From positions 1 through 64,000 of the forward strand of contig JAMLGJ010000019.1 in assembly GCA_023958095.1 (NCBI GenBank): a stretch of 64,000 bases of DNA, read 5' to 3'. The notes below the pieces were generated by a model. That model had not been told where the DNA came from. It did no database searches and saw nothing but the letters and a program-made list of their open reading frames with translations. Position 1 is the first letter of the stretch, and each line of letters starts with the position of its first letter. Positions 14,970 through 25,225 of this stretch are shown here, one piece after another. The position numbers were made by a program, and so were the translations under genes. This DNA comes from Microthrixaceae bacterium (GTDB lineage Bacteria > Actinomycetota > Acidimicrobiia > Acidimicrobiales > Microtrichaceae).

Positions 14970-16487
14970 GTGGACACTCCCACGTGGTCAGATTGCGGGG
15001 TGGGATTCCCGCGCGAACCCGATCCGGCACCGCGGCCGGTCGTGCGCGCAGTGCGCACGACCGGCATCTACTGCCGTCCGGGGTGCTCCGCACGTCCTCT
15101 GGAGTCGAACGTCGTGGAGTACCCGCTCGCGGCAGCGGCGGAGGCCGCCGGCTACCGGGCGTGCCACCGCTGCCGGCCATACCAGTCGCCGGATGCAGGT
15201 GCGATAGGGCCCGAGATCGTCTGCCGCGGGGTCAGGATGGTCACCGCGGGAGCGCTCGACGAACACACCGAGGCCGACCTGGCCGCCACACTCGGGGTCT
15301 CCGCGCGCCACCTCCGCAGGGTCTTCACCGAACACCTCGGCGTGACCCCCGACCGCCTCGCCCGGTCGCACCGGGCCCACTTCGCGCGCCGGCTGCTGGA
15401 CGATTCCGACCTGCCCGTGCGCGACGTCGCGTTCGCGGCCGGGTTCGGCAGCGTCCGCCAGCTGCAGCGGGCGATGGTCACCACCTTCGGCGAGCCACCC
15501 AGCGTGCTGCGCGAACGGCGGCCGGGCGGCGACGCCGCGCCGGGGACGACCGGGGGCCTCACGGTGCCGCTGCCCCACGACGGCCCACTCGACTGGCCCT
15601 GGATGTGCCGCTGGCTCGCCACGCGGGCCATCACGGGCGTCGAGACGGTCGACTTCGACGGGGATCCCCCGAACCGGGCGACACTGCGGCGCTCCTTCGA
15701 GGTCGACGGAGAAGCCGCTCTGGTGGAGCTGACGGCCGGGGGCCACGACGGCCGGCTCCTGCTGCGGGTGCACATGCCGCGCTGGGACGACCTCACCCAC
15801 CTGGTTCGCTCGGCGCGCCGGGTCGGGGCAACGGGCTCCGACGCCGCCGACGCCCTGGAGCACCTGGGGGCGGACCCGATCCTCGGGGAGCTCGTGCGCG
15901 GGCGACCCGGGTTGCGTCCCCCGGGCTGCTGGGACCCCTTCGCCGCGGTCGTCCAGGCGGTGCTGGCCCAGCAGGTCAGCACGCGCGCTGCGCGCACACT
16001 CGTCACCCGCCTCGTGCGCGCCCACGGCACACCGGTCGCCGGCCTGGAGGAACTCGGGCTGCACCTCGCGTTCCCGGACCCAGAGCTCCTCGCCGAGGCG
16101 GACCTGTCAGGGGTCGGACTCACCCGACGCCGGGCCGCGACCGTGCGCTCGGTCGCGCTCGCGGTCGGCTCCGGTGAACTCGACCTCGAGGATCCGCTGC
16201 TACTGGCCCCGAACCGTGCAGGTGGGGAGCCCGAGGTGCTCCGGGCGTTGCAGCGGGTCCCCGGCATCGGCCCATGGACGGCCTCCTACGTCGGGATCAG
16301 GATGGGCCTGCCCGACGAGTTCCCGGTGGCCGACCTCGCGCTGCGCGACGCCGTGGGTCTGCTCACCTCTGGACCCCGCCCCAGCACCCGGGAGCTGGCA
16401 GCGCTGTCTGAGGCGTGGCGCCCCCACCGCTCCTTCGCAGCGGTGCACCTCTGGACATGGTTGAGGGAGTTCAGAAGTCCCGGGTGA
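14970..16487 (+). CDS. Ada zinc domain / AraC / AlkA 3-methyladenine glycosylase fusion
   Basis: A roughly 505-aa protein in three parts. (1) Ada N-terminal zinc domain, TTGIYCRPGC plus ACHRCRP, supplying the four cysteines, one of which accepts methyl groups from phosphotriesters in Ada proteins. (2) AraC-type HTH (about 95-185; ATLGVSARHLRRVFTEHLGVTP). (3) AlkA-type glycosylase with the N-terminal AlkA domain (DWPWMCRWLATRAITGVETV) and the helix-hairpin-helix catalytic core: RVPGIGPWTASYVGIRMG followed by the catalytic Asp in FPVADLALRDAVG. It would sense methylation, activate repair genes and excise alkylated bases. The start is uncertain (GTG 14970 or GTG 14949). It ends 17 bp inside the convergent ATPase gene. 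Confidence 0.88.
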   Translation: MDTPTWSDCGVGFPREPDPAPRPVVRAVRTTGIYCRPGCSARPLESNVVEYPLAAAAEAAGYRACHRCRPYQSPDAGAIGPEIVCRGVRMVTAGALDEHTEADLAATLGVSARHLRRVFTEHLGVTPDRLARSHRAHFARRLLDDSDLPVRDVAFAAGFGSVRQLQRAMVTTFGEPPSVLRERRPGGDAAPGTTGGLTVPLPHDGPLDWPWMCRWLATRAITGVETVDFDGDPPNRATLRRSFEVDGEAALVELTAGGHDGRLLLRVHMPRWDDLTHLVRSARRVGATGSDAADALEHLGADPILGELVRGRPGLRPPGCWDPFAAVVQAVLAQQVSTRAARTLVTRLVRAHGTPVAGLEELGLHLAFPDPELLAEADLSGVGLTRRRAATVRSVALAVGSGELDLEDPLLLAPNRAGGEPEVLRALQRVPGIGPWTASYVGIRMGLPDEFPVADLALRDAVGLLTSGPRPSTRELAALSEAWRPHRSFAAVHLWTWLREFRSPG

Positions 16488-17979
16488 AGTACAGCGACAT
16501 CACCCGGTCGACCATGTCGGCGGTGAGCACCGGTTCGGTGCCCAGGTAGCTCGCGATCGACGAGGCCAGCTTGCACACCGTGCCGGGGAGGTACGCCCGC
16601 AGCTCGCCGTCACCCTGGGTGCGCGCGAAGTCGCGCAGGTGGTCCGCTGCCCCGGGCTCGACCCGGATGCCCTTGGCCTCGGTGACCCGCCTGAGGATCT
16701 CGTCGAACTCCGCGTCGGCGCAGGCTCCAACGAAGACCTTCGAGTGGATGCGGCGGAAGAATGCGTCGTCGCCGAGCTTCGCCGGCTGCATGTTGGTCGA
16801 CAGGACCACCTTGAGGTCGAACGGGACCTCGAACTTGCGCCCCATGAGCGTCAGGTAGTCGATGCCACGATCGAGCGGGACGATCCAACGGTTCAGCAGC
16901 TCCTCGGGAGAAGCGCTCTGGCGTCCGAAGTCGTCGATCACGAAGATGCCGTTGTTGGCCTTCAGCTGCAGTGGCGCCAGGTACACACCGGAGTCGGGCT
17001 CGAACGCCAGATCCAACATGCCGGCGTGCAGCTCGCCACCGGCGATCACCGCGGGGCGTTCGCAGGCAACCCAGCGGGGGTCGAGGCCGGGCGGCTGTTG
17101 CGGGATCGGGGTGTGCAGGGTCGGGTCGAACACCGCGACGATCTGGCCCTCGACCTCGATGGCGTGCGGAATCAGCACGTAGTCGCTGTGGGCACGCACG
17201 ATGCGCTCGGCCACACTCGACTTGCCGGTACCGGGGGGTCCGTAGAGGAACATCGCCCCGTCGCCGTGTATCGCCGGGCCGAGTTCGTCGAGCAGGTCAT
17301 CGGCGATGACCAGGTCAGCGAACGCCTCGGTGAGGATCTCGCGGTCGAGGTGCAGCGAGGGGTGCTGGGCCCGCACCACGTCGTGGTAGAGCCCCAGCGA
17401 CACCGGGACCGGGCCCATGTAGCGGCACTCCGAGGAGCGCTGGGCGGCGTGGGCGCGGCCGGCCTCGGTCGGGCTCACCACGTAGGAGCGACCGTCCATG
17501 CCCTGGTACTCCACGAGGTTCCGGTCCCTCATCGCCTGGACCGCCACGTCGACCAGGTTCGCGGTCACGTGGAGCTTCGCCGCGACCGCGGTGGTGGTGT
17601 TGCGCACGTCGACCACGATCTGGCGCAACAGGATGTCCTCGAGCACAGCCGGGTTGATCCCGAGTCCTTCCGGGAGCGCGGGTGGCCGCAAGCGGCTCTC
17701 GAGGCTCGCCAGCTCCTGCTCACCTGGAGCGGTGGCTCCGGGGTCCCCGGTGGCACCCTCCTGCGCACCAGGCGGGCCCTGGTCGCCCACGGCCGGATCG
17801 AGCCCGGCATCGAAGCGGCGTTCCCAGTCGCTCTCCGGCTCTGGGGTGGTGTCCGCGGGCCCCACCTCGACGTCGGGTTCGAGCACTGCTGTGTCCGCCG
17901 GCCGGTCGTACCAGGCTCCCCCCGGTTGCGCGGGTGAGAACTCCGGCAGTTGCTCGGCGGTGCTCGTGCTCTGGTCCAT
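16471..17979 (-). CDS. Orphan AAA+ ATPase with winged-helix-like N-terminal region
   Basis: A 502-aa ATPase. Residues 1-95 are acidic, Pro-rich and probably disordered; 100-180 (AVLEDILLRQIVVDVRNTTT..., LHVTANLVDVAVQAMRDRNL) look like a winged-helix domain. The ATPase core has Walker A GPPGTGKSS (247-255), Walker B GIFVIDDFG (344-352) and sensor 1 STNMQP (N396). The fold resembles MoxR/RuvB-like AAA+ proteins. No VWA partner, no pilus or protease gene and no other ATPase subunit is adjacent, so its client is unknown. Start ATG 17979 has GAGGGG about 6 bases upstream; the upstream in-frame extension is basic and unlikely. It is convergent with the AlkA fusion and divergent from the YceI gene. 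Confidence 0.82.
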   Translation of the reverse strand: MDQSTSTAEQLPEFSPAQPGGAWYDRPADTAVLEPDVEVGPADTTPEPESDWERRFDAGLDPAVGDQGPPGAQEGATGDPGATAPGEQELASLESRLRPPALPEGLGINPAVLEDILLRQIVVDVRNTTTAVAAKLHVTANLVDVAVQAMRDRNLVEYQGMDGRSYVVSPTEAGRAHAAQRSSECRYMGPVPVSLGLYHDVVRAQHPSLHLDREILTEAFADLVIADDLLDELGPAIHGDGAMFLYGPPGTGKSSVAERIVRAHSDYVLIPHAIEVEGQIVAVFDPTLHTPIPQQPPGLDPRWVACERPAVIAGGELHAGMLDLAFEPDSGVYLAPLQLKANNGIFVIDDFGRQSASPEELLNRWIVPLDRGIDYLTLMGRKFEVPFDLKVVLSTNMQPAKLGDDAFFRRIHSKVFVGACADAEFDEILRRVTEAKGIRVEPGAADHLRDFARTQGDGELRAYLPGTVCKLASSIASYLGTEPVLTADMVDRVMSLYFTRDF

Positions 17980-18116
17980 TCGTGCCCCTCGGGTCGTGCA
18001 CCCGCGCGGACGCGTGGACCACCCGAGCCGGTGCAACAGCTGCTCGCGACATCGGCAGCATCGTGCGGGCCCTTGAGCGGCGACCCGGGTGCGCGCCGCT
18101 GGTCGGCTCCGGGTGC

Positions 18117-18122
18117 GACACT
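18117..18122 (+). promoter_or_regulatory. Putative -10 element before the YceI gene
   Basis: GACACT ends six bases before ATG 18129 with no Shine-Dalgarno sequence between. It fits the A2/T6 spacing pattern but lacks the first T, so support comes mainly from its position. Confidence 0.35.
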
Positions 18123-18128
18123 GGCTGC

Positions 18129-18965
18129 ATGACCAATCGCTCCAAGGGCTCCATCGCCGCAGGCATCGCTCTGGCGGTGGTGCTGGTCGCAGCGGGTGTG
18201 TGGTTCCTGTTCTTCCGCAGCGACGCTCCCCCGAAGGTGGACCTCGAGTCGGCCACCGAGCAGGTCACCTCCACCACCACCGGCGACGGCGACGGAGACG
18301 GTGACGGCGCAACGACAACCTCGGAGGCGCCCACACCGGCCGACATCGAGGGCACCTGGGTCGTGGACGACGAGAGCGGGGAGTTCGACTTCGAATCGGC
18401 GACGGGCTCCTTCGCGGGCTACCGCGTGCAGGAGGAGCTGGCCAGCATCGGCAGCACCGAGGCGGTGGGCCGCACGGGTGAGGTCACCGGCGAGATGGCC
18501 ATCGCGGGCACCACCATGGAATCGGTCCAGGTGACCGTCGACCTGTCCGCGATCGAGTCGGACAAGCCAAGGCGCGACAACCGGGTGCAGGATGCTCTCG
18601 AGACCGAGGAGTTCCCGACCGCGGACTTCGAACTGACCGAACCGGTCGAGTTGGGTCCGGACGCCGCAGCGTCCGAGGAGATCTCCGTCGAGGCGACCGG
18701 CGAGTTGACCATCCACGGAGTGACCCGTGAGGTGACCGTCGAGCTCGCGGCTCAGCTCGTGGACGGCACCGCCGTGGTCGTGGGCAGCATCCCCATCGAG
18801 TTGTCCGACTTCGGGGTCGAGGCACCGAGTGCTCCGATGGTCCTCTCGGTCTCCGAGGAGGCCACGATCGAGTTCCAACTCCTGTTCACACCGAGCGACG
18901 CACCACTCGAGCAGGAGGCCTCCGGCGGGGAACCGGCCACGACGGGGAGCACCGCCGCACCCTGA
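18129..18965 (+). CDS. Membrane-anchored YceI-family lipid-binding protein
   Basis: A 278-aa protein with a single N-terminal membrane segment (about 9-29), a Thr/acidic linker containing a GDGDGDGDG run (encoded by GA-C-rich hexamer repeats at about 18287-18308), and a YceI lipocalin-like domain from about 75 to 255 (EFDFESATGSFAGYRVQEEL, then TGELTIHGVTREVTVEL). YceI domains bind long isoprenoids or amphiphilic lipids outside the cytoplasm. A low-complexity tail (EPATTGSTAAP) follows. It is probably anchored outside the membrane with the domain exposed. It is divergent from the AAA+ ATPase gene and is followed by the 18983 gene after 17 bp, though that gene has its own promoter-like hexamer. 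Confidence 0.88.
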   Translation: MTNRSKGSIAAGIALAVVLVAAGVWFLFFRSDAPPKVDLESATEQVTSTTTGDGDGDGDGATTTSEAPTPADIEGTWVVDDESGEFDFESATGSFAGYRVQEELASIGSTEAVGRTGEVTGEMAIAGTTMESVQVTVDLSAIESDKPRRDNRVQDALETEEFPTADFELTEPVELGPDAAASEEISVEATGELTIHGVTREVTVELAAQLVDGTAVVVGSIPIELSDFGVEAPSAPMVLSVSEEATIEFQLLFTPSDAPLEQEASGGEPATTGSTAAP

Positions 18966-18982: not shown

Positions 18983-19858
18983 ATGGGACGAAGCGACCCC
19001 GTGCCGATCGGTCAGTGGGCCTACAACTGGCACGACCGCCCCCGACCATTCGTCCACCCGGTGACCACCCCGTCGGGCCGTGTGTTGACCGTCGACGCCC
19101 CGGCGGACCATCCGTGGCACCACGCGCTGTGGTTCACCATCAAGTTCGTCAACGGCGAGAACTTCTGGGAGGAGTACGACGACTACGGCCTGCTCGTGCA
19201 GGACCGACCCCCACGGGTGCTCGGAGCGACCGACGCGGCCGGTCGAATCTGGCGGAGCCACATCTCCTGGCAACGACCGGGAAACCCCGGGGGCACCGGG
19301 GCGGAGGTCGTGATCGACCAGGTCGTGGAGCTCGCCCTCGAACAGCACCGCGACATGGTCGCCATGGACTGGGACGTGCGCCTGGTGCCGCGGGTGGACG
19401 TGGTGCTCGACCGCACGCCCTTCACCACCTGGGGCGGCTACGGGGGGCTCACCTTCCGGGGGCGCGGGGACTGGCACGACACCACCCTGTGGGCCCCCGG
19501 ACACCCGTGGCCCCCGGGGGACGACACCCGGGCGCGGCTGCTCGGGGACGGTTCCAGGTGGTGCAGTCTCGAAGGCATGCTCCCCGGACCGCAGGGCGCT
19601 GAACGGCCCGCCGGGATGGCGATCCTCGACCATCCCGGCAACCCGAACCACCCGACCCCGTGGTACGCGAGCACCAGGGCCGACACCTACGGCGACGAGG
19701 GTTGGTCGAACTTCGTGAACGCGGCCTTCCTGTGGCACGGGCCACTGGAAGTTGCCGCCGGTGAGGAACTGCGGTTGCGCCACCGCGTGGTGACCTGGGA
19801 CGACGAATCGGACCACGAGCGCATCGACTCCGAGTGGGACCGCTGGGTGTCGCGGTGA
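18983..19858 (+). CDS. DUF6807 (PmoA-annotated) family protein
   Basis: A 291-aa protein of the family often mislabelled methane oxygenase PmoA. It shows the family features: FVHPVTTPSGRVLTVDAPADHPWHHALWF (read in two parts, with the HPWHHALWF core), WGGYGGLTFRG in the middle, and GMAILDHPGNPNHPTPWY (in parts) late in the chain. There are no membrane segments, so it is not the membrane subunit of methane monooxygenase. Family members sit in sugar-degradation clusters of soil and marine bacteria next to isomerases and oxidoreductases, and the fold is beta-sandwich-like; a carbohydrate-related role is likely but the reaction is unknown. It overlaps the next gene by 4 bp (GTGA), implying coupled translation. 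Confidence 0.8.
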   Translation: MGRSDPVPIGQWAYNWHDRPRPFVHPVTTPSGRVLTVDAPADHPWHHALWFTIKFVNGENFWEEYDDYGLLVQDRPPRVLGATDAAGRIWRSHISWQRPGNPGGTGAEVVIDQVVELALEQHRDMVAMDWDVRLVPRVDVVLDRTPFTTWGGYGGLTFRGRGDWHDTTLWAPGHPWPPGDDTRARLLGDGSRWCSLEGMLPGPQGAERPAGMAILDHPGNPNHPTPWYASTRADTYGDEGWSNFVNAAFLWHGPLEVAAGEELRLRHRVVTWDDESDHERIDSEWDRWVSR

Positions 19859-22542
19859 GAGCGAAGGCCGATGAGCTGCTCGGACTCACCACCGACACCC
19901 TCGAGCAACTGGTGGCGACGCACCTGCCGCGCTGGCGCATCCCCGGGTTCATGGCCGGACACCCGGTCGAACCCGACGTGGCCGCCGACGTCGCGTTCAC
20001 CCTCGCCCACCTCCACGACGCCGGGGTCACCGAGGTCGCCGGCAGCCCCGTGCCGGATGCCATCGAACAGGTGCTCGCACAGGTCGACGGTTCCCGCACC
20101 CACACGTTCTTCTCCTACCGCGTGGCCGAGACGCTGGCCCGCTTCGGGAGCTTCGACGACAACCAGATCCTGGCCGGCTGGTCACCCCGGGCGCGGGCCG
20201 ACATCGCGGCGGCCACCGACTCCCGCGAGTGGATCCAGCTGTTGGATGCGGGCCTGCCTCGCAACTACGCGGCGGTGCTCGCGCGCTGTGAGGTGGCACG
20301 TGAACGCCTGGGCCTGGAGGTGGACCCGGAGGTGACGGCGGACCTCCTCGGGCGCACCGCGTCGATGCTGGCCACCGATCCACTCGGATACCTCGACGAC
20401 TCGACCCACGGAGTCGGACGCACGGACATCTACACCGTCGACGTCTGGCTGTTCACCGAGCCCCTGGCGGATCGGCTCGGCGACATCTGGACCCGTGGGC
20501 TCGCAACCGCGGTGGAGCTGGTCTCCCGCACCGGGACCCCGGGTGGCTGTGCCATCAGCTGGGGGCGCTCGAGTGGGGCACTGGCAACCGCACTGACCAT
20601 CGAACTCGCCGCCGAGGTGCTGGCGACCGACGACCCCGCACTCCACGGGCGCCGGGACCTGTGGAGCGCACGGCTCGGACCTGCGGTGGCCTCCATGCGG
20701 CGCTGGTTCGAGTCGGGGCTCGTGAACGCCCACGTCGGAAGGAGCCCATATGGCTACAGGGGACCCTTCCGCCGCCTGCAGATGACCGCCGACCTGCTCG
20801 GCAAGCTGGCATGGGCAGCAGCTCGCCTCGGGGCCTGCCGCGTCGACCCCGGCGCCGAACCCGGCGACGGACGCGGCCGTGTCGTGTTCGACCACGACGA
20901 GCTCCTGCCCCTCGGATCGGATCCCGCGGCACACCTCTGGTCTCGCTCGGTTGGGCCGACCGGTTTCGTGGTGCCCTTCGTGGGAGCGACCCGCTCGGAC
21001 TACCTGGCTGCGCCGCGGCGGCCCGGCACCTATGAGGTGCCCGTCGACGCGGCGATCGGATGCTGGGTGCCGGTGGTCCACTCCGGCGCCGAGCAGTACG
21101 CACCCGCAGGGGTGCCCCTGGGCGTGGAGCACGCCCCGGGACGGGTGTCGGCCCGTTGGGGAGCACTCAGGCGGCTCGGCGACCTGGATCCACCCTCCGG
21201 AGGCCACGAACTGCCCGGAACCGCCGAGGTGACCTTCACCGAGGAGGGACGCGCGCTGCGCGTCGAGGTGATGGTGGAGCTCGCGACGGCACCCCATGCG
21301 GTGGCGGTCACGGTGCCCGAGACCTCCGGGACTCCGCTGCGCGTGGAGAACCTGGACGGACCGCGGGAGAAGCCGTTCGCGACCGTGGACACCGCCGGAA
21401 TCGCCGAGTGGCGTTCGTTCTGGGGTGAGCTCCCGGTCGTGCACCAGCACGACCTCGAACCCGACCCTGTCGAGCCACAGCTGTTCCGCAGTTCCTACCG
21501 GGTGACGCCCGCGGTGAGGGTGGCATCCACCGCGCACGGCCACCACTACGACCGGACTCTGTACGGACCCCTCGAACAACGGCGCCGGGCGGTGTCGGTG
21601 GCCAATCCGCTCGGGCCGCTCGGGAGCCCCGACGTGGGGGCGGACGACTTCGACGTGTTCCACCTCCACTGGCCGGAATGGTTGGCCTTCGACGACCTCT
21701 CCGAACACGAGGCCATCGCCAACACGCTGGCGGGGATGGACAAGCCCGTGCTGTGGACCGCTCACAACCTGCGGCCACACGCCAGAGGACCGGGTGATGC
21801 GCATCGGGCGGTCTACGAGCTCTGGGCCTCACGGGCGGACGCGGTGGTGCACCACAGCACCTGGGGACGCGACCGGATGCTGGCGACCCACGACTTCCCC
21901 GACGACACGACGCACCACGTGGTGCCGCACCCGCACTTCGGCGACCTCTACCCGAGTGCGCGCACGCCCCGCGGGGAGGCGGCCGCACGACTCGGGCTGC
22001 CCGAGGAAGGGATCCGGATCGGGCTGCTGGGCGCGCCGCGCAGCGAGCGCGACGTGCAGGGGTTCCTCGAAGCCGTGGCAGCCAGCACCAACCGCGACAT
22101 CCAGGTGTGCTGCTGGTCACTCGCCGCGGATCAGGAGGCTCCCCGGGACGGGCGCATCGCGGTGGCGGAGACCTACCGGATGGTCGATGCGGACACCTAC
22201 GGCCTGCGGCTCGCCGCCTGCGACGTGGTGGCCATGCCCGTGGACCCGGAGGGGGAGATGCTCGGCAGCGGTCTGGCAGCCGACGTGGTCGGCGCCGGTC
22301 TCGCGGCCCTGTGCACTCCCTGGGGCTACACCGAGGAGATCCTCGGCGGTGCGGTGATCCCGATGGGATTCGACCACGGGTCCATGGTCACCGCACTCGA
22401 CGGCCTGGACCGGGACACCGTCGAGGCCTCACGCAGCGCAGCGGTCGACCTGCGGGAGCGCCTCTCCCCCCTGCGCTGCGCCACGGCGACCGAGGAGATA
22501 CTCCTCGGACTGCTCACGGGCTCCCGGGCGGAGCGCCCCTGA
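19855..22542 (+). CDS. DUF2264-like toroid domain fused to a GT4-type glycosyltransferase
   Basis: An 895-aa protein with two unrelated halves. Residues 1-about 330 form a helical repeat region (HTFFSYRVAETLARFGSFDD, then DIYTVDVWLFTEPLADRLG and ISWGRSSGALATALTIELAA) that resembles DUF2264/heparinase-like alpha/alpha toroids; about 330-570 is beta-rich, as in the companion domain of such enzymes. Residues about 595-895 look like a GT-B glycosyltransferase: FDVFHLHWPEWLAF, KPVLWTAHNLRPH, a GLLGAPRSERDVQGFL segment and a C-terminal helix region. The expected donor-binding E-x7-E is not obvious (EGEMLGSGLAADVVGAG is the nearest region). The GTG start overlaps the preceding stop. Substrate unknown; the domain names are my reading and need profile searches. 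Confidence 0.7.
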   Translation: MRAKADELLGLTTDTLEQLVATHLPRWRIPGFMAGHPVEPDVAADVAFTLAHLHDAGVTEVAGSPVPDAIEQVLAQVDGSRTHTFFSYRVAETLARFGSFDDNQILAGWSPRARADIAAATDSREWIQLLDAGLPRNYAAVLARCEVARERLGLEVDPEVTADLLGRTASMLATDPLGYLDDSTHGVGRTDIYTVDVWLFTEPLADRLGDIWTRGLATAVELVSRTGTPGGCAISWGRSSGALATALTIELAAEVLATDDPALHGRRDLWSARLGPAVASMRRWFESGLVNAHVGRSPYGYRGPFRRLQMTADLLGKLAWAAARLGACRVDPGAEPGDGRGRVVFDHDELLPLGSDPAAHLWSRSVGPTGFVVPFVGATRSDYLAAPRRPGTYEVPVDAAIGCWVPVVHSGAEQYAPAGVPLGVEHAPGRVSARWGALRRLGDLDPPSGGHELPGTAEVTFTEEGRALRVEVMVELATAPHAVAVTVPETSGTPLRVENLDGPREKPFATVDTAGIAEWRSFWGELPVVHQHDLEPDPVEPQLFRSSYRVTPAVRVASTAHGHHYDRTLYGPLEQRRRAVSVANPLGPLGSPDVGADDFDVFHLHWPEWLAFDDLSEHEAIANTLAGMDKPVLWTAHNLRPHARGPGDAHRAVYELWASRADAVVHHSTWGRDRMLATHDFPDDTTHHVVPHPHFGDLYPSARTPRGEAAARLGLPEEGIRIGLLGAPRSERDVQGFLEAVAASTNRDIQVCCWSLAADQEAPRDGRIAVAETYRMVDADTYGLRLAACDVVAMPVDPEGEMLGSGLAADVVGAGLAALCTPWGYTEEILGGAVIPMGFDHGSMVTALDGLDRDTVEASRSAAVDLRERLSPLRCATATEEILLGLLTGSRAERP

Positions 22543-23356
22543 GGGCCTCCGGCGGCCGTGCTCCGGTGCCGCCGACAGGACCGTCCCCGACGACCGCGAG
22601 GATCTCCCTCAGCACCGCCGCGTCGCGTCGGAGGTTCGCCGGGTCGTCGTGTTCGACGAACTCGATCAGCACGGAGCGCCTGAAGCCCTCCGGCGCGTCC
22701 AGGTCCCCTGCGGTGCGGATCCATTCGGTCCAGCTGCGACGTTGCCGGGAGAGCGGGTGGCGCGTGCCGTCGCCCGACCAGGCGTAGACGTGCAGGTGCG
22801 CCAGCTGCTCGCCGAGCATCCGGATGGCGGCCACACCCGGCGCCGTCCGCGGAAGTGCCCCCGGTTCCCCGCCCGGGGACCAGTACGGCGGCTGCCAGGC
22901 GCACAGCAGGTTCGGCGCATCGACGCGCTCCAGCAGCGACACCGCCGAAGGGGCACTCGAGGTGAGGGTGCCTCCATGGAACTCCAGGTACACCCACAAC
23001 CCCAGCTCCGCCGCGGCGTCGGCCACCTCGGCGAGGGAATCAGCGGTGCCATCGGGTGGCGCCCAGACGCGCACCGCCGGGGCTCCGAGGGCCACTGCCG
23101 TGTCCAGCACCGGCCCCATGGACCCGGCCGCGGCGCCATCCGCGACCAGGTAGGAGCCGTAGGAGCACACCTCCAGCCCTGCGTCCACGGTGCGCCGGGC
23201 GACCTCGCCGGCGGTGCGCAGGTCGCCGTGGGGGACGTGCACGTCACCACCCCACTCGATGCAGCGCAGGCCCGCTCGTGTTGCCAGCTCCACGATCTCC
23301 GCGGCACTGCACCGGCGGAAGGTGACCGAGCAGAGGCCCGGCTGCAGCCGACTCAC
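22514..23356 (-). CDS. Sugar phosphate isomerase/epimerase-family TIM barrel
   Basis: A 280-aa xylose-isomerase-like TIM barrel. Hallmarks: FRRCSAAEIVELATRAGLRC with CIEWGGDVHVPHGD (metal His region), VYLEFHGGTL (metal Glu and His), LCAWQPPYWSPGG and HLHVYAWSGDG; QLAHLHVY is the usual late strand. It probably binds a divalent metal and isomerises or epimerises a sugar or keto-sugar. The ATG start overlaps the stop of the upstream hydroxyacid dehydrogenase as ATGA, making it the third gene of a minus-strand operon beginning at 25225. Its 3' end overlaps the convergent glycosyltransferase fusion by 29 bp, so the two operons of the cluster meet here. Confidence 0.85.
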   Translation of the reverse strand: MSRLQPGLCSVTFRRCSAAEIVELATRAGLRCIEWGGDVHVPHGDLRTAGEVARRTVDAGLEVCSYGSYLVADGAAAGSMGPVLDTAVALGAPAVRVWAPPDGTADSLAEVADAAAELGLWVYLEFHGGTLTSSAPSAVSLLERVDAPNLLCAWQPPYWSPGGEPGALPRTAPGVAAIRMLGEQLAHLHVYAWSGDGTRHPLSRQRRSWTEWIRTAGDLDAPEGFRRSVLIEFVEHDDPANLRRDAAVLREILAVVGDGPVGGTGARPPEALRGAPPGSP

Positions 23357-24390
23357 GCGATCCTCGGAATGTCCTCACGCCGAACCGGGTACAGCGGAGA
23401 CTCACCGGCGGCGAAGCGCGCCACCTCGGCGACCGCAAGGTCGGTCAGGCGTCGGGTCTCACTCCCCACCGCACCGGCGACGTGCGGGGTCAACATGACG
23501 TTCGGCAGCTCCCGCAGTGGCGAATCGACCGGTAGGGGCTCCGGGTGGGTGACATCCAGGATGGCCTGCAACCGGCCCGACGCGAGTTCCTGCTGCAGCG
23601 CTGCGGTGTCGATCAGGGCCCCCCGCGCGGTGTTGACGATGGTGACGCCGTCGGCCAGCAGCGACAGCTGTCGGGCTCCGATCATCCGGCGGGTCGAATC
23701 GAGTTCGGGGGCGTGCAGGCTCAACACGTCGCACCAGCTGCAGAGCTCGTCGAGTTCCATCTTCTGCGCACCCATGCGGGCGGCGTCATCGTCGTCCAGG
23801 TACGGATCGTGGAACGCCACCTGCAGGTCGTGGACCGAGAGGTACTCGCAGGTGAGCCGGCCCACGTGCGAGGCACCCACGAGCCCGACGCGGCGGTCGT
23901 GGTTGCCGAGCGCGGACATGTCCAGTGGCACCCGCAGCGAGGGGTCCCGCTCGGCTGCCGAGAGCCACACGATCCCCTTGTTCGCGAGCAGGATCGCAGC
24001 AGCTGCGAACTCCGCGACGGGAACCGCGTTCGCCGCGGCGGCGCTCGTCACCACCACCCCACGCTCCCAGAGCTCGTCGGTGACCTGCCACTTCACGGTT
24101 CCGGCGCCGTAGGCGAACATGGCCAGCCTCGGCATCGCCTCGAGCGCCGTGGCGTCGAGTGTCGGGCAACCCCAGTGTCCGAAGATGACATCGGTGTCGG
24201 CGAGCAGCTCCGCAACAGCGGGATCCGAGAAGTCGCCCACCGGGACACGTGTGGACAGCTCGCCGATCTCGGCCAGTGCATCCAGGTGTTCCTCGGTCAC
24301 CGCGTAGCCGAGCAGACCATCCATCATCGCAGGGGTGATCACCGGAGGTCGGGCTCGTCGGGAACCCGGCTGCCCAGCGTGGTCGGTCAC
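23353..24390 (-). CDS. D-2-hydroxyacid dehydrogenase family protein
   Basis: A 345-aa NAD-dependent D-isomer-specific 2-hydroxyacid dehydrogenase. The Rossmann motif reads VGLVGASHVGRL (Gly-x-Gly-x2-Gly is altered to GASHVG, so the second Gly is Ser/Ala-like), the catalytic Arg is in IVNTARGALIDTAAL, the Glu in VTHPEPLP and the His in MLTPHVAG. It reduces a 2-keto acid or oxidises a hydroxy acid, possibly a sugar-acid intermediate given its neighbours. The GTG start at 24390 lies 13 bases after the upstream gene's stop. The altered nucleotide loop is worth noting but is seen in some sugar-acid members of the family. Confidence 0.87.
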   Translation of the reverse strand: MTDHAGQPGSRRARPPVITPAMMDGLLGYAVTEEHLDALAEIGELSTRVPVGDFSDPAVAELLADTDVIFGHWGCPTLDATALEAMPRLAMFAYGAGTVKWQVTDELWERGVVVTSAAAANAVPVAEFAAAAILLANKGIVWLSAAERDPSLRVPLDMSALGNHDRRVGLVGASHVGRLTCEYLSVHDLQVAFHDPYLDDDDAARMGAQKMELDELCSWCDVLSLHAPELDSTRRMIGARQLSLLADGVTIVNTARGALIDTAALQQELASGRLQAILDVTHPEPLPVDSPLRELPNVMLTPHVAGAVGSETRRLTDLAVAEVARFAAGESPLYPVRREDIPRIA

Positions 24391-24403
24391 CTTCGCGTCC
24401 GCC

Positions 24404-25225
24404 TCAGCCGAGCAGTCGTTTCGAGAAGTGCTCGAGCACCAGGTCGAGGGCAGCTCTGGTGGGTTCCCCCTCCTCGTCGACGAGGTGCTCCGTCAACACC
24501 GAGTGCGGGGCCATGGGCGGGTCTGGGTTGGCGTCCTCGTCGTCGAGCTCCACCGCCGTGAAGCTGTCGCCGAGCTGTTCGCGCAGGAACTCGAAGCGTT
24601 CCGCGGGTACGAGCCTGTCACCCCTGAAACGCAACCCGATGACCTCGAAGTCGTCCTCGGCGGCGCAGCGCTGCTTCACGATCTCGAGGTCCTCCGGCGA
24701 GGTGTCGATGCTGCGCCTGCGGGCCGCCCCCACGGCGAACGGCAACGAGGGCTGCGACAGCACCGGGGCGAGCAGGCGCTCGTCGGTGGCCATGGCGAGC
24801 GCGAACCCCCCGGTGAAGCACATCCCGACCGCACCCACACCGGGTCCACCGCAGCGCTCGTGCTCGTGCGCGGCGAGTGCCCTCAACCAGGCCACCACGG
24901 GCGAGGTCCGGCCGGTGGACCACACCACGAACTCCCGCGACACGCAGGGTGGCACGATGCTGCGCACGAAGGTCGACGCCCCACCGATACGACCGTGCGC
25001 CTCGGGCGCGGGGTCCCTCCCCGGCTCGCCGAAGAGGTGGGGCATCACCGCGGTGCAACCGATCCCCGCCACCTTGCGGGCGAAGTCGGCCACCTTGGGG
25101 GTGATCCCGGGCATCTCGGCGATCACGATCACCGCGGGGCCGCTCCCGGTGCGGTACGTGCGCCTCGTGGAGCCTCCGTGGGTGAAGGTCGTCGCCTCGA
25201 AGTCGCTCAGCGGGTCATCTGCCAT
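24404..25225 (-). CDS. Dienelactone hydrolase family protein
   Basis: A 273-aa alpha/beta hydrolase with a Cys nucleophile. GVGAVGMCFTGGFALA places Cys at about 136 in the G-x-C-x-G elbow of dienelactone hydrolases; VIVIAEMPGITPKVADFARK is the first loop with the conserved Glu/Met region. The C-terminal part (SVLTEHLVDEEGEPTRAA) is less typical, and the expected catalytic His region is not clear. It could hydrolyse a lactone, for example a sugar lactone produced in this operon. It is the first gene of the DLH - hydroxyacid dehydrogenase - isomerase operon and has a promoter-like hexamer directly before the ATG. Confidence 0.85.
   Translation of the reverse strand: MADDPLSDFEATTFTHGGSTRRTYRTGSGPAVIVIAEMPGITPKVADFARKVAGIGCTAVMPHLFGEPGRDPAPEAHGRIGGASTFVRSIVPPCVSREFVVWSTGRTSPVVAWLRALAAHEHERCGGPGVGAVGMCFTGGFALAMATDERLLAPVLSQPSLPFAVGAARRRSIDTSPEDLEIVKQRCAAEDDFEVIGLRFRGDRLVPAERFEFLREQLGDSFTAVELDDEDANPDPPMAPHSVLTEHLVDEEGEPTRAALDLVLEHFSKRLLG

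Follow-up and report, generated by a model that had tools for sequence, protein, structure and literature searches.

A Conserved TorGT/SIE/HADH Gene Module of Acidimicrobiia with a Proposed Role in Carbohydrate Catabolism

The genes for a large toroid-containing protein (TorGT), a sugar isomerase-like protein (SIE), and a 2-hydroxyacid dehydrogenase (HADH) form one conserved module, which goes together with genes for an Old Yellow Enzyme (OYE), a DUF993 protein, and an exported lipoprotein. The module lies on contig C11 of a Microthrixaceae bacterium genome (3.25 Mb, 94% complete) in the window, which denotes here the whole 64,000-nucleotide stretch that was analyzed. It is likely that the module as such is catabolic, and a subset of the Acidimicrobiia probably shares a system for carbohydrate catabolism that is divided between two loci, the window region being one of them. 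The best reading is that the module genes make up half of a genuine pathway by which actinobacteria of soil and water break down a sugar, with the other half placed elsewhere in the genome. Five loosely related genes become in this way a defined, testable gene set. DUF6807 and DUF993, both families of unknown function, gain a functional context, as do TorGT and the exported 700-amino acid lipoprotein, which have no Pfam family. None of the papers searched for the gene set describes a matching pathway.

Gene Layout and Distribution

The five genes named in the first-pass annotation are present at the coordinates listed in Table 1, with the same open reading frames chosen by an independent codon-based caller and with Pfam matches for DUF6807, HADH, SIE, and the dienelactone hydrolase-family protein (DLH). 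The 29-bp overlap of TorGT with SIE (22514-22542) noted there is real, and further overlaps of 25 bp between DUF6807 and TorGT and of 4 bp between SIE and HADH are followed by a 13-bp gap between HADH and DLH. Its observation that no transporter or regulator is adjacent also holds within the window. The convergent TorGT/SIE/HADH pairing occurs again in ∼9 other family genomes, so the layout is not a product of chance. The AAA ATPase and YceI-domain genes just upstream of DUF6807, the latter encoding an N-terminal hydrophobic segment, are both kept in the sister genome.

Table 1. Coordinates of the module genes and related features (window positions unless a contig or locus is given)
Feature	Position	Strand	Remarks
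AAA ATPase; YceI-domain protein	16471-18965	-; +	
DUF6807 (PF14100) protein	18983-19858	+	Pfam E 7e-45
TorGT, 902 aa	19834-22542	+	Gene call; sub-threshold GT4 match as sole Pfam signal
SIE, sugar isomerase-like protein	22514-23356	-	Pfam AP_endonuc_2 E 4e-8
HADH, 2-hydroxyacid dehydrogenase	23353-24390	-	Pfam 2-Hacid_dh_C E 3e-42
DLH, dienelactone hydrolase-family	24404-25225	-	Pfam DLH E 2e-7; nucleophile motif GMCFTGG
OYE and DUF993 pair, window genome	C16:39808-42221		
Tat-lipoprotein, window genome, one copy	L083:5004-7133 (G000:C16)	-	
Tat-lipoprotein, window genome, other copy	L117 (G000:C56)		
OYE with cysteine tail	L083:8776-10275		
Diaminopentanoate dehydrogenase-like and HEAT-repeat flanks	L039:11264-13663; also L035, L036, L037, L041, L042		
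PAS/histidine-kinase and GFO/IDH/MocA frame	L019:476-3229		Single open frame

TorGT homologues are found in 14 of 33 family genomes, several of which are fragmented or incomplete and with six of the 14 belonging to one genus, and in two genomes elsewhere in the order. Among the 14 TorGT genomes, 12 have a relative of HADH (E below 1e-40), compared with 0/19 of the genomes that lack TorGT (p 3e-7). A relative of SIE is present in 10 compared with 0/19 (p 1e-5), and DUF993 in all 14 compared with 7/19 (p 1e-4), with kinship ignored in each of these p values. OYE and the lipoprotein are likewise carried by 14/14 TorGT genomes. Counted by genus, co-occurrence with TorGT has a p value of 7e-4 for HADH and of about 0.013 for the other genes. 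An even sample of 396 genomes from the phylum contains full-length TorGT in four and OYE in six, with OYE present in 4/4 TorGT genomes (p 1.5e-8, relatedness uncorrected).

The association is strong in gene position as well. In ten family genomes HADH is only a few kilobases from TorGT, and in nine this is true of SIE, with the convergent arrangement of the window in nearly every case; the simple gene caller chose antisense frames in very GC-rich relatives, and the gene positions there were taken from tblastn. In one locus (L040) the order OYE-HADH-SIE-DUF993-lipoprotein-TorGT is found on a single strand with spacings of -4, 25, -4, 33, and -4 bp, an operon which indicates that the facing arrangement is no barrier to shared function. 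A few genomes have TorGT with no HADH or SIE detected (G010, G073), SIE is also absent from the TorGT genomes G005, G006, and G028, and in G034 TorGT is megabases away from the OYE and HADH genes. Many family genomes have the TorGT/SIE/HADH unit flanked by two further genes, one diaminopentanoate dehydrogenase-like (79-90% identity) and the other encoding HEAT repeats.

DLH is a bystander. It is present in 30 of the 37 genomes tested whatever their TorGT status (Fisher p 0.17), and 14 of the 19 family genomes that lack TorGT have it. The genus of the window is alone in having DLH close to the TorGT cluster; in other genomes it is elsewhere on the chromosome. This distribution takes DLH out of the pathway, and the lactone cleavage suggested for the region by the first-pass annotation, together with any lactonase route, is rejected on the same grounds. 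The co-occurrence search suggested there as a check leaves the link standing for four of its five genes (TorGT, SIE, HADH, and DUF6807) and removes it for DLH.

That gene set was also incomplete, having missed OYE, DUF993, a Gfo/Idh/MocA dehydrogenase (GFO), and the exported lipoprotein, which complete it at a second locus. In the sister genome (contig C12) DUF993 is located between TorGT and SIE, and OYE between HADH and DLH in the minus-strand operon. Loss of both genes from the window genome, suspected from this comparison, is ruled out because they are paired on contig C16, divergent from the GFO gene at L083:7305-8666 and close to a 709-amino acid lipoprotein. Sister contig C9 carries relatives of the C16 GFO (78%) and lipoprotein together, without OYE or DUF993. 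The two placements indicate that, within the genus, a gene pair of this kind has been transferred from one of the two loci to the other. The window SIE has ∼25 C-terminal residues that are absent from its relatives and overlap the 3′ end of TorGT, a tail such as would be left by removal of DUF993 from between SIE and TorGT.

Transporters and regulators are found at loci of other genomes. L112 (G038) contains, in order, an ABC permease, a solute-binding protein, a DeoR regulator, several further genes, a DUF2264/GH154 gene, OYE, DUF993, a LacI regulator, a 266-amino acid protein, HADH, and a GH36 α-galactosidase. A Clostridia plasmid record (L118) has an OYE relative with 35-36% identity; the record is unannotated there, and the sequences of the neighboring genes suggest a LacI regulator, an isomerase, an IlvD-type dehydratase, and an ABC importer. 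The plasmid collection contains no relative of DUF993 or DUF6807.

Features of the Module Proteins

TorGT has 16 homologues of 35-55% identity and is composed of an α/α toroid (residues ∼1-340), a β-rich region (∼400-560), and a GT-B/GT4-like domain (∼600-890) with conserved H-x-x-W-P-E-W and W-T-x-H-N-x-x-P-H motifs. The model of the whole protein, built from three sequences, is poor overall (pLDDT 49.7), and so only residues 4-339 are interpreted. The best fold match of this toroid is to cellobiose 2-epimerase (Z 20.2), and the best matches include BcGDH (PDB code 9nwf) and GH154 (PDB code 8oi4), the latter with Z 16.6 over 304 residues, which is non-specific as other toroid families score equally high. 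Of the toroid-glycosyltransferase fusion first described for this gene, the toroid is thus upheld by a fold match and the GT4 portion has a sub-threshold Pfam signal, with a best score of 22.8 bits compared with the 28.5 bits needed. Weak Glyco_transf_4 matches occur in five TorGT members and there is otherwise no Pfam match. Foldseek matches to the GT-B proteins Gtf3 and MshA are no more than weak, and at the site of the E-x7-E donor-binding motif M809, G813, and D817 are invariant with the second Glu absent.

The toroid and β domain, together with conserved N, Y, and G-R-S landmarks, liken TorGT to the GH154/DUF2264 uronate dehydratases (PMC12269599), although an extra GT-B domain is present and both sequence-level membership and the proposed catalytic acid Tyr are absent. 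In BcGDH the catalytic pair is Arg-285 and Tyr-289, with the Tyr as the proposed catalytic acid (PMC12269599). The corresponding R245 of TorGT is invariant in 16 sequences, and the position four residues on is variable and never Tyr. PF10022 (DUF2264) gives no Pfam match to TorGT up to E 10, and hhalign of the toroid with two GH154/DUF2264 members gives a probability of 0.6%. TorGT as a member of GH154 is rejected by Pfam, by hhalign, and by the missing Tyr.

SIE has a xylose isomerase-like TIM barrel. Its sequence profile matches AsbF (PDB code 3dx5), a 3-dehydroshikimate dehydratase, with E 1.6e-12, and the match spans the strand that bears the E-x-H motif. E125 and H127 of the motif are invariant in 10 sequences, and the metal site retains E125, H187, and E232. 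The differences from AsbF are the gene context and the metal Asp, the position of which appears to be taken by Gln-155 (W154-Q155). SIE is a probable AsbF-like keto-dependent eliminase, dehydratase, or hydratase. In the O-glycoside β-eliminase AtOGE and the C-glycoside eliminases, the E/H-x-H motif supplies both a ligand of the metal and the His that is essential for catalysis (PMC10628242). HADH is, as its active-site residues indicate, a D-2-hydroxyacid dehydrogenase of the NAD type, with R256, E284, H303, and the NAD-binding D195 invariant in 13 homologues. Its nucleotide loop reads G-A-S-x-x-G, not G-x-G-x-x-G, and is also invariant in the 13.

OYE shares with the Old Yellow Enzyme/2,4-dienoyl-CoA reductase superfamily an FMN barrel, the active-site positions H154 (in 10/11 sequences) and H221 (11/11), R268, and the G-x-G-R phosphate motif, but it belongs to a clade of its own with an invariant C-R-T-F-S-D-C-x11-C end. 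This C-x5-C-x11-C tail (CRTFSDC...GC), found in the L083 protein and its homologues, resembles the Fe-S site of dienoyl-CoA reductases in a degenerate form, and from the spacing we take its cysteines to be three of the four that bind the cluster in that enzyme. The DUF993 protein passes the Pfam gathering score for PF06187 marginally (24.2 compared with 24 bits) and belongs to the DapA/NAL superfamily, with K210 invariant in 11 sequences and aligned with the Schiff base lysine of the DapA "GIK" motif. Immediately before the called start of the C16 lipoprotein, the sequence encodes a twin-arginine stretch and a lipobox, V-A-S-A-C. The family of ∼700-amino acid Tat-lipoproteins is present in 24 of the 37 genomes tested, matches nothing in Pfam, and probably comprises secreted carbohydrate-active enzymes. 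PDB sequence profiles are uninformative for DUF6807, for TorGT, and for the lipoprotein.

A Candidate Route and Its Alternatives

The enzyme classes, as predicted from the sequences, suggest a specific route of ketone formation, β-elimination, ene-reduction, and aldol-type cleavage, which is put forward tentatively and for which we infer the following order and substrate. The exported Tat-lipoprotein and the TorGT toroid would act on a glycoside or oligosaccharide, with uronate- or galactose-containing glycosides as candidates; the sugar would thus be prepared by toroid-type enzymes on the export side and in the cytosol. GFO would oxidize a ring hydroxyl to a ketone, and SIE, whose E-x-H motif is shared with AsbF and the glycoside β-eliminases, would remove water or the aglycone β to this ketone. 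The C=C bond formed would be reduced by OYE, the DUF993 protein with its DapA fold and invariant Schiff base-type lysine may cleave or dehydrate the deoxy-keto product, HADH would interconvert 2-keto acid and 2-hydroxy acid with NAD, and the anomer or ring form may be handled by DUF6807. An enone sugar arising by ketone-driven elimination, reduced by OYE, passed to the DapA-like lyase and HADH, and fed by the toroid/GT fusion is possible, if somewhat doubtful. Should the ene-reductase step be true, these actinobacteria, few of which are cultivated, would be breaking down sugar with an Old Yellow Enzyme in an unusual role. The gene linkage of GFO is to OYE/DUF993, and it adjoins SIE in no Acidimicrobiia locus seen.

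Similar chemistry occurs in the 3-keto glycoside pathways (AtOGE, the C-glycoside eliminases, and the levoglucosan operon; PMC10628242), which have the E/H-x-H barrel motif in common with the module and place GFO and sugar isomerase/epimerase-family proteins, the same enzyme classes, in one operon. In those pathways a second isomerase-family hydratase and a reductase are present and no OYE, DUF993, HADH, or TorGT is described, whereas the constant core of the module is the ene-reductase (OYE) and the DapA-like lyase (DUF993).

Several features speak against a catabolic explanation. A GT4-like domain is more easily explained in a biosynthetic pathway than in a degradative one, and the apparent Gln in SIE is unusual where AsbF- and AtOGE-type enzymes have the metal Asp. 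The TorGT genomes with no HADH or SIE detected, the distant TorGT of G034, and the incomplete genomes and shared genus in the family sample also count against it. TorGT might instead build a glycan or glycoside containing an unusual sugar of the deoxy or pseudo type, with GFO, SIE, OYE, DUF993, and HADH making the precursor. This would agree with the conserved motifs of the GT-B/GT4-like domain and with the lack of Pfam matches in the window to any named family of degradative enzymes, but it is unlikely given that L112 has OYE, DUF993, and HADH in the company of a sugar ABC importer, both regulators, and the α-galactosidase, that the partner lipoprotein is predicted to be exported, and that about a third of the family genomes with OYE and DUF993 have no TorGT.

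The lack of GH154 membership bears on a variant of the catabolic explanation, in which the TorGT toroid would be a GH154-type dehydratase yielding a 4,5-unsaturated uronate for degradation by OYE, SIE, DUF993, and HADH. GH154 enzymes are reported as dehydratases (PMC12269599), BcGDH and GH154 (PDB codes 9nwf and 8oi4) are among the best toroid fold matches, and a true DUF2264/GH154 gene abuts OYE in G038. With the Pfam and hhalign results negative, no Tyr four residues after the Arg in spite of the N-Y, Y, and GRS landmarks, and no GH88/GH105 gene seen nearby, this variant is improbable. An accidental neighborhood of five unrelated genes, with no pathway at all, is very improbable; the failure of DLH to co-occur and the presence of DUF6807 in only 2/33 family genomes would suit it, and it is opposed by the co-occurrence and contiguity of TorGT, SIE, and HADH and by the recurrence of DUF6807, which in L021 is again next to TorGT and HADH and in L019 and L020 accompanies OYE/DUF993.

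DUF6807 as an Optional Module Member

DUF6807 is an optional member of the module, confined within the family to the genus of the window. Its PF14100 match extends over residues 14-286 (154 bits compared with a gathering score of 27), with H43, H46, R21, and W50 conserved. The AF2 model (pLDDT 85.5) has a mutarotase-like β-supersandwich fold with VIA Z scores of 14-17 to galactose mutarotases and GH36 N-domains; PDB code 4bze is matched with Z 15.5 and rmsd 3.8 over 223 aligned residues, and many mutarotases have Z 14-16. The operons in L019 and L020 have the order GFO-DUF6807-cupin-DUF993-OYE, and a conserved block GFO-AP_endonuc_2-DUF6807-sulfatase is found in Phycisphaerae (L023, L024, L028). 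In a functional-metagenomics clone, a PF14100 gene is located between two β-galactosidase genes (PMC5342196). These neighborhoods, the predicted fold, and the clone place DUF6807 in sugar catabolism and do not give its reaction; within the module it is probably a sugar-binding or an anomer/elimination enzyme. No function was found in the literature searched for DUF6807, PF14100, and DUF993. The Phycisphaerae block adjoins genes for indoleamine 2,3-dioxygenase and a multicopper oxidase. In L019 PAS/histidine-kinase domains and an entire GFO/IDH/MocA enzyme are encoded by a single open frame, either a genuine fusion or possibly a chimera of the assembly.
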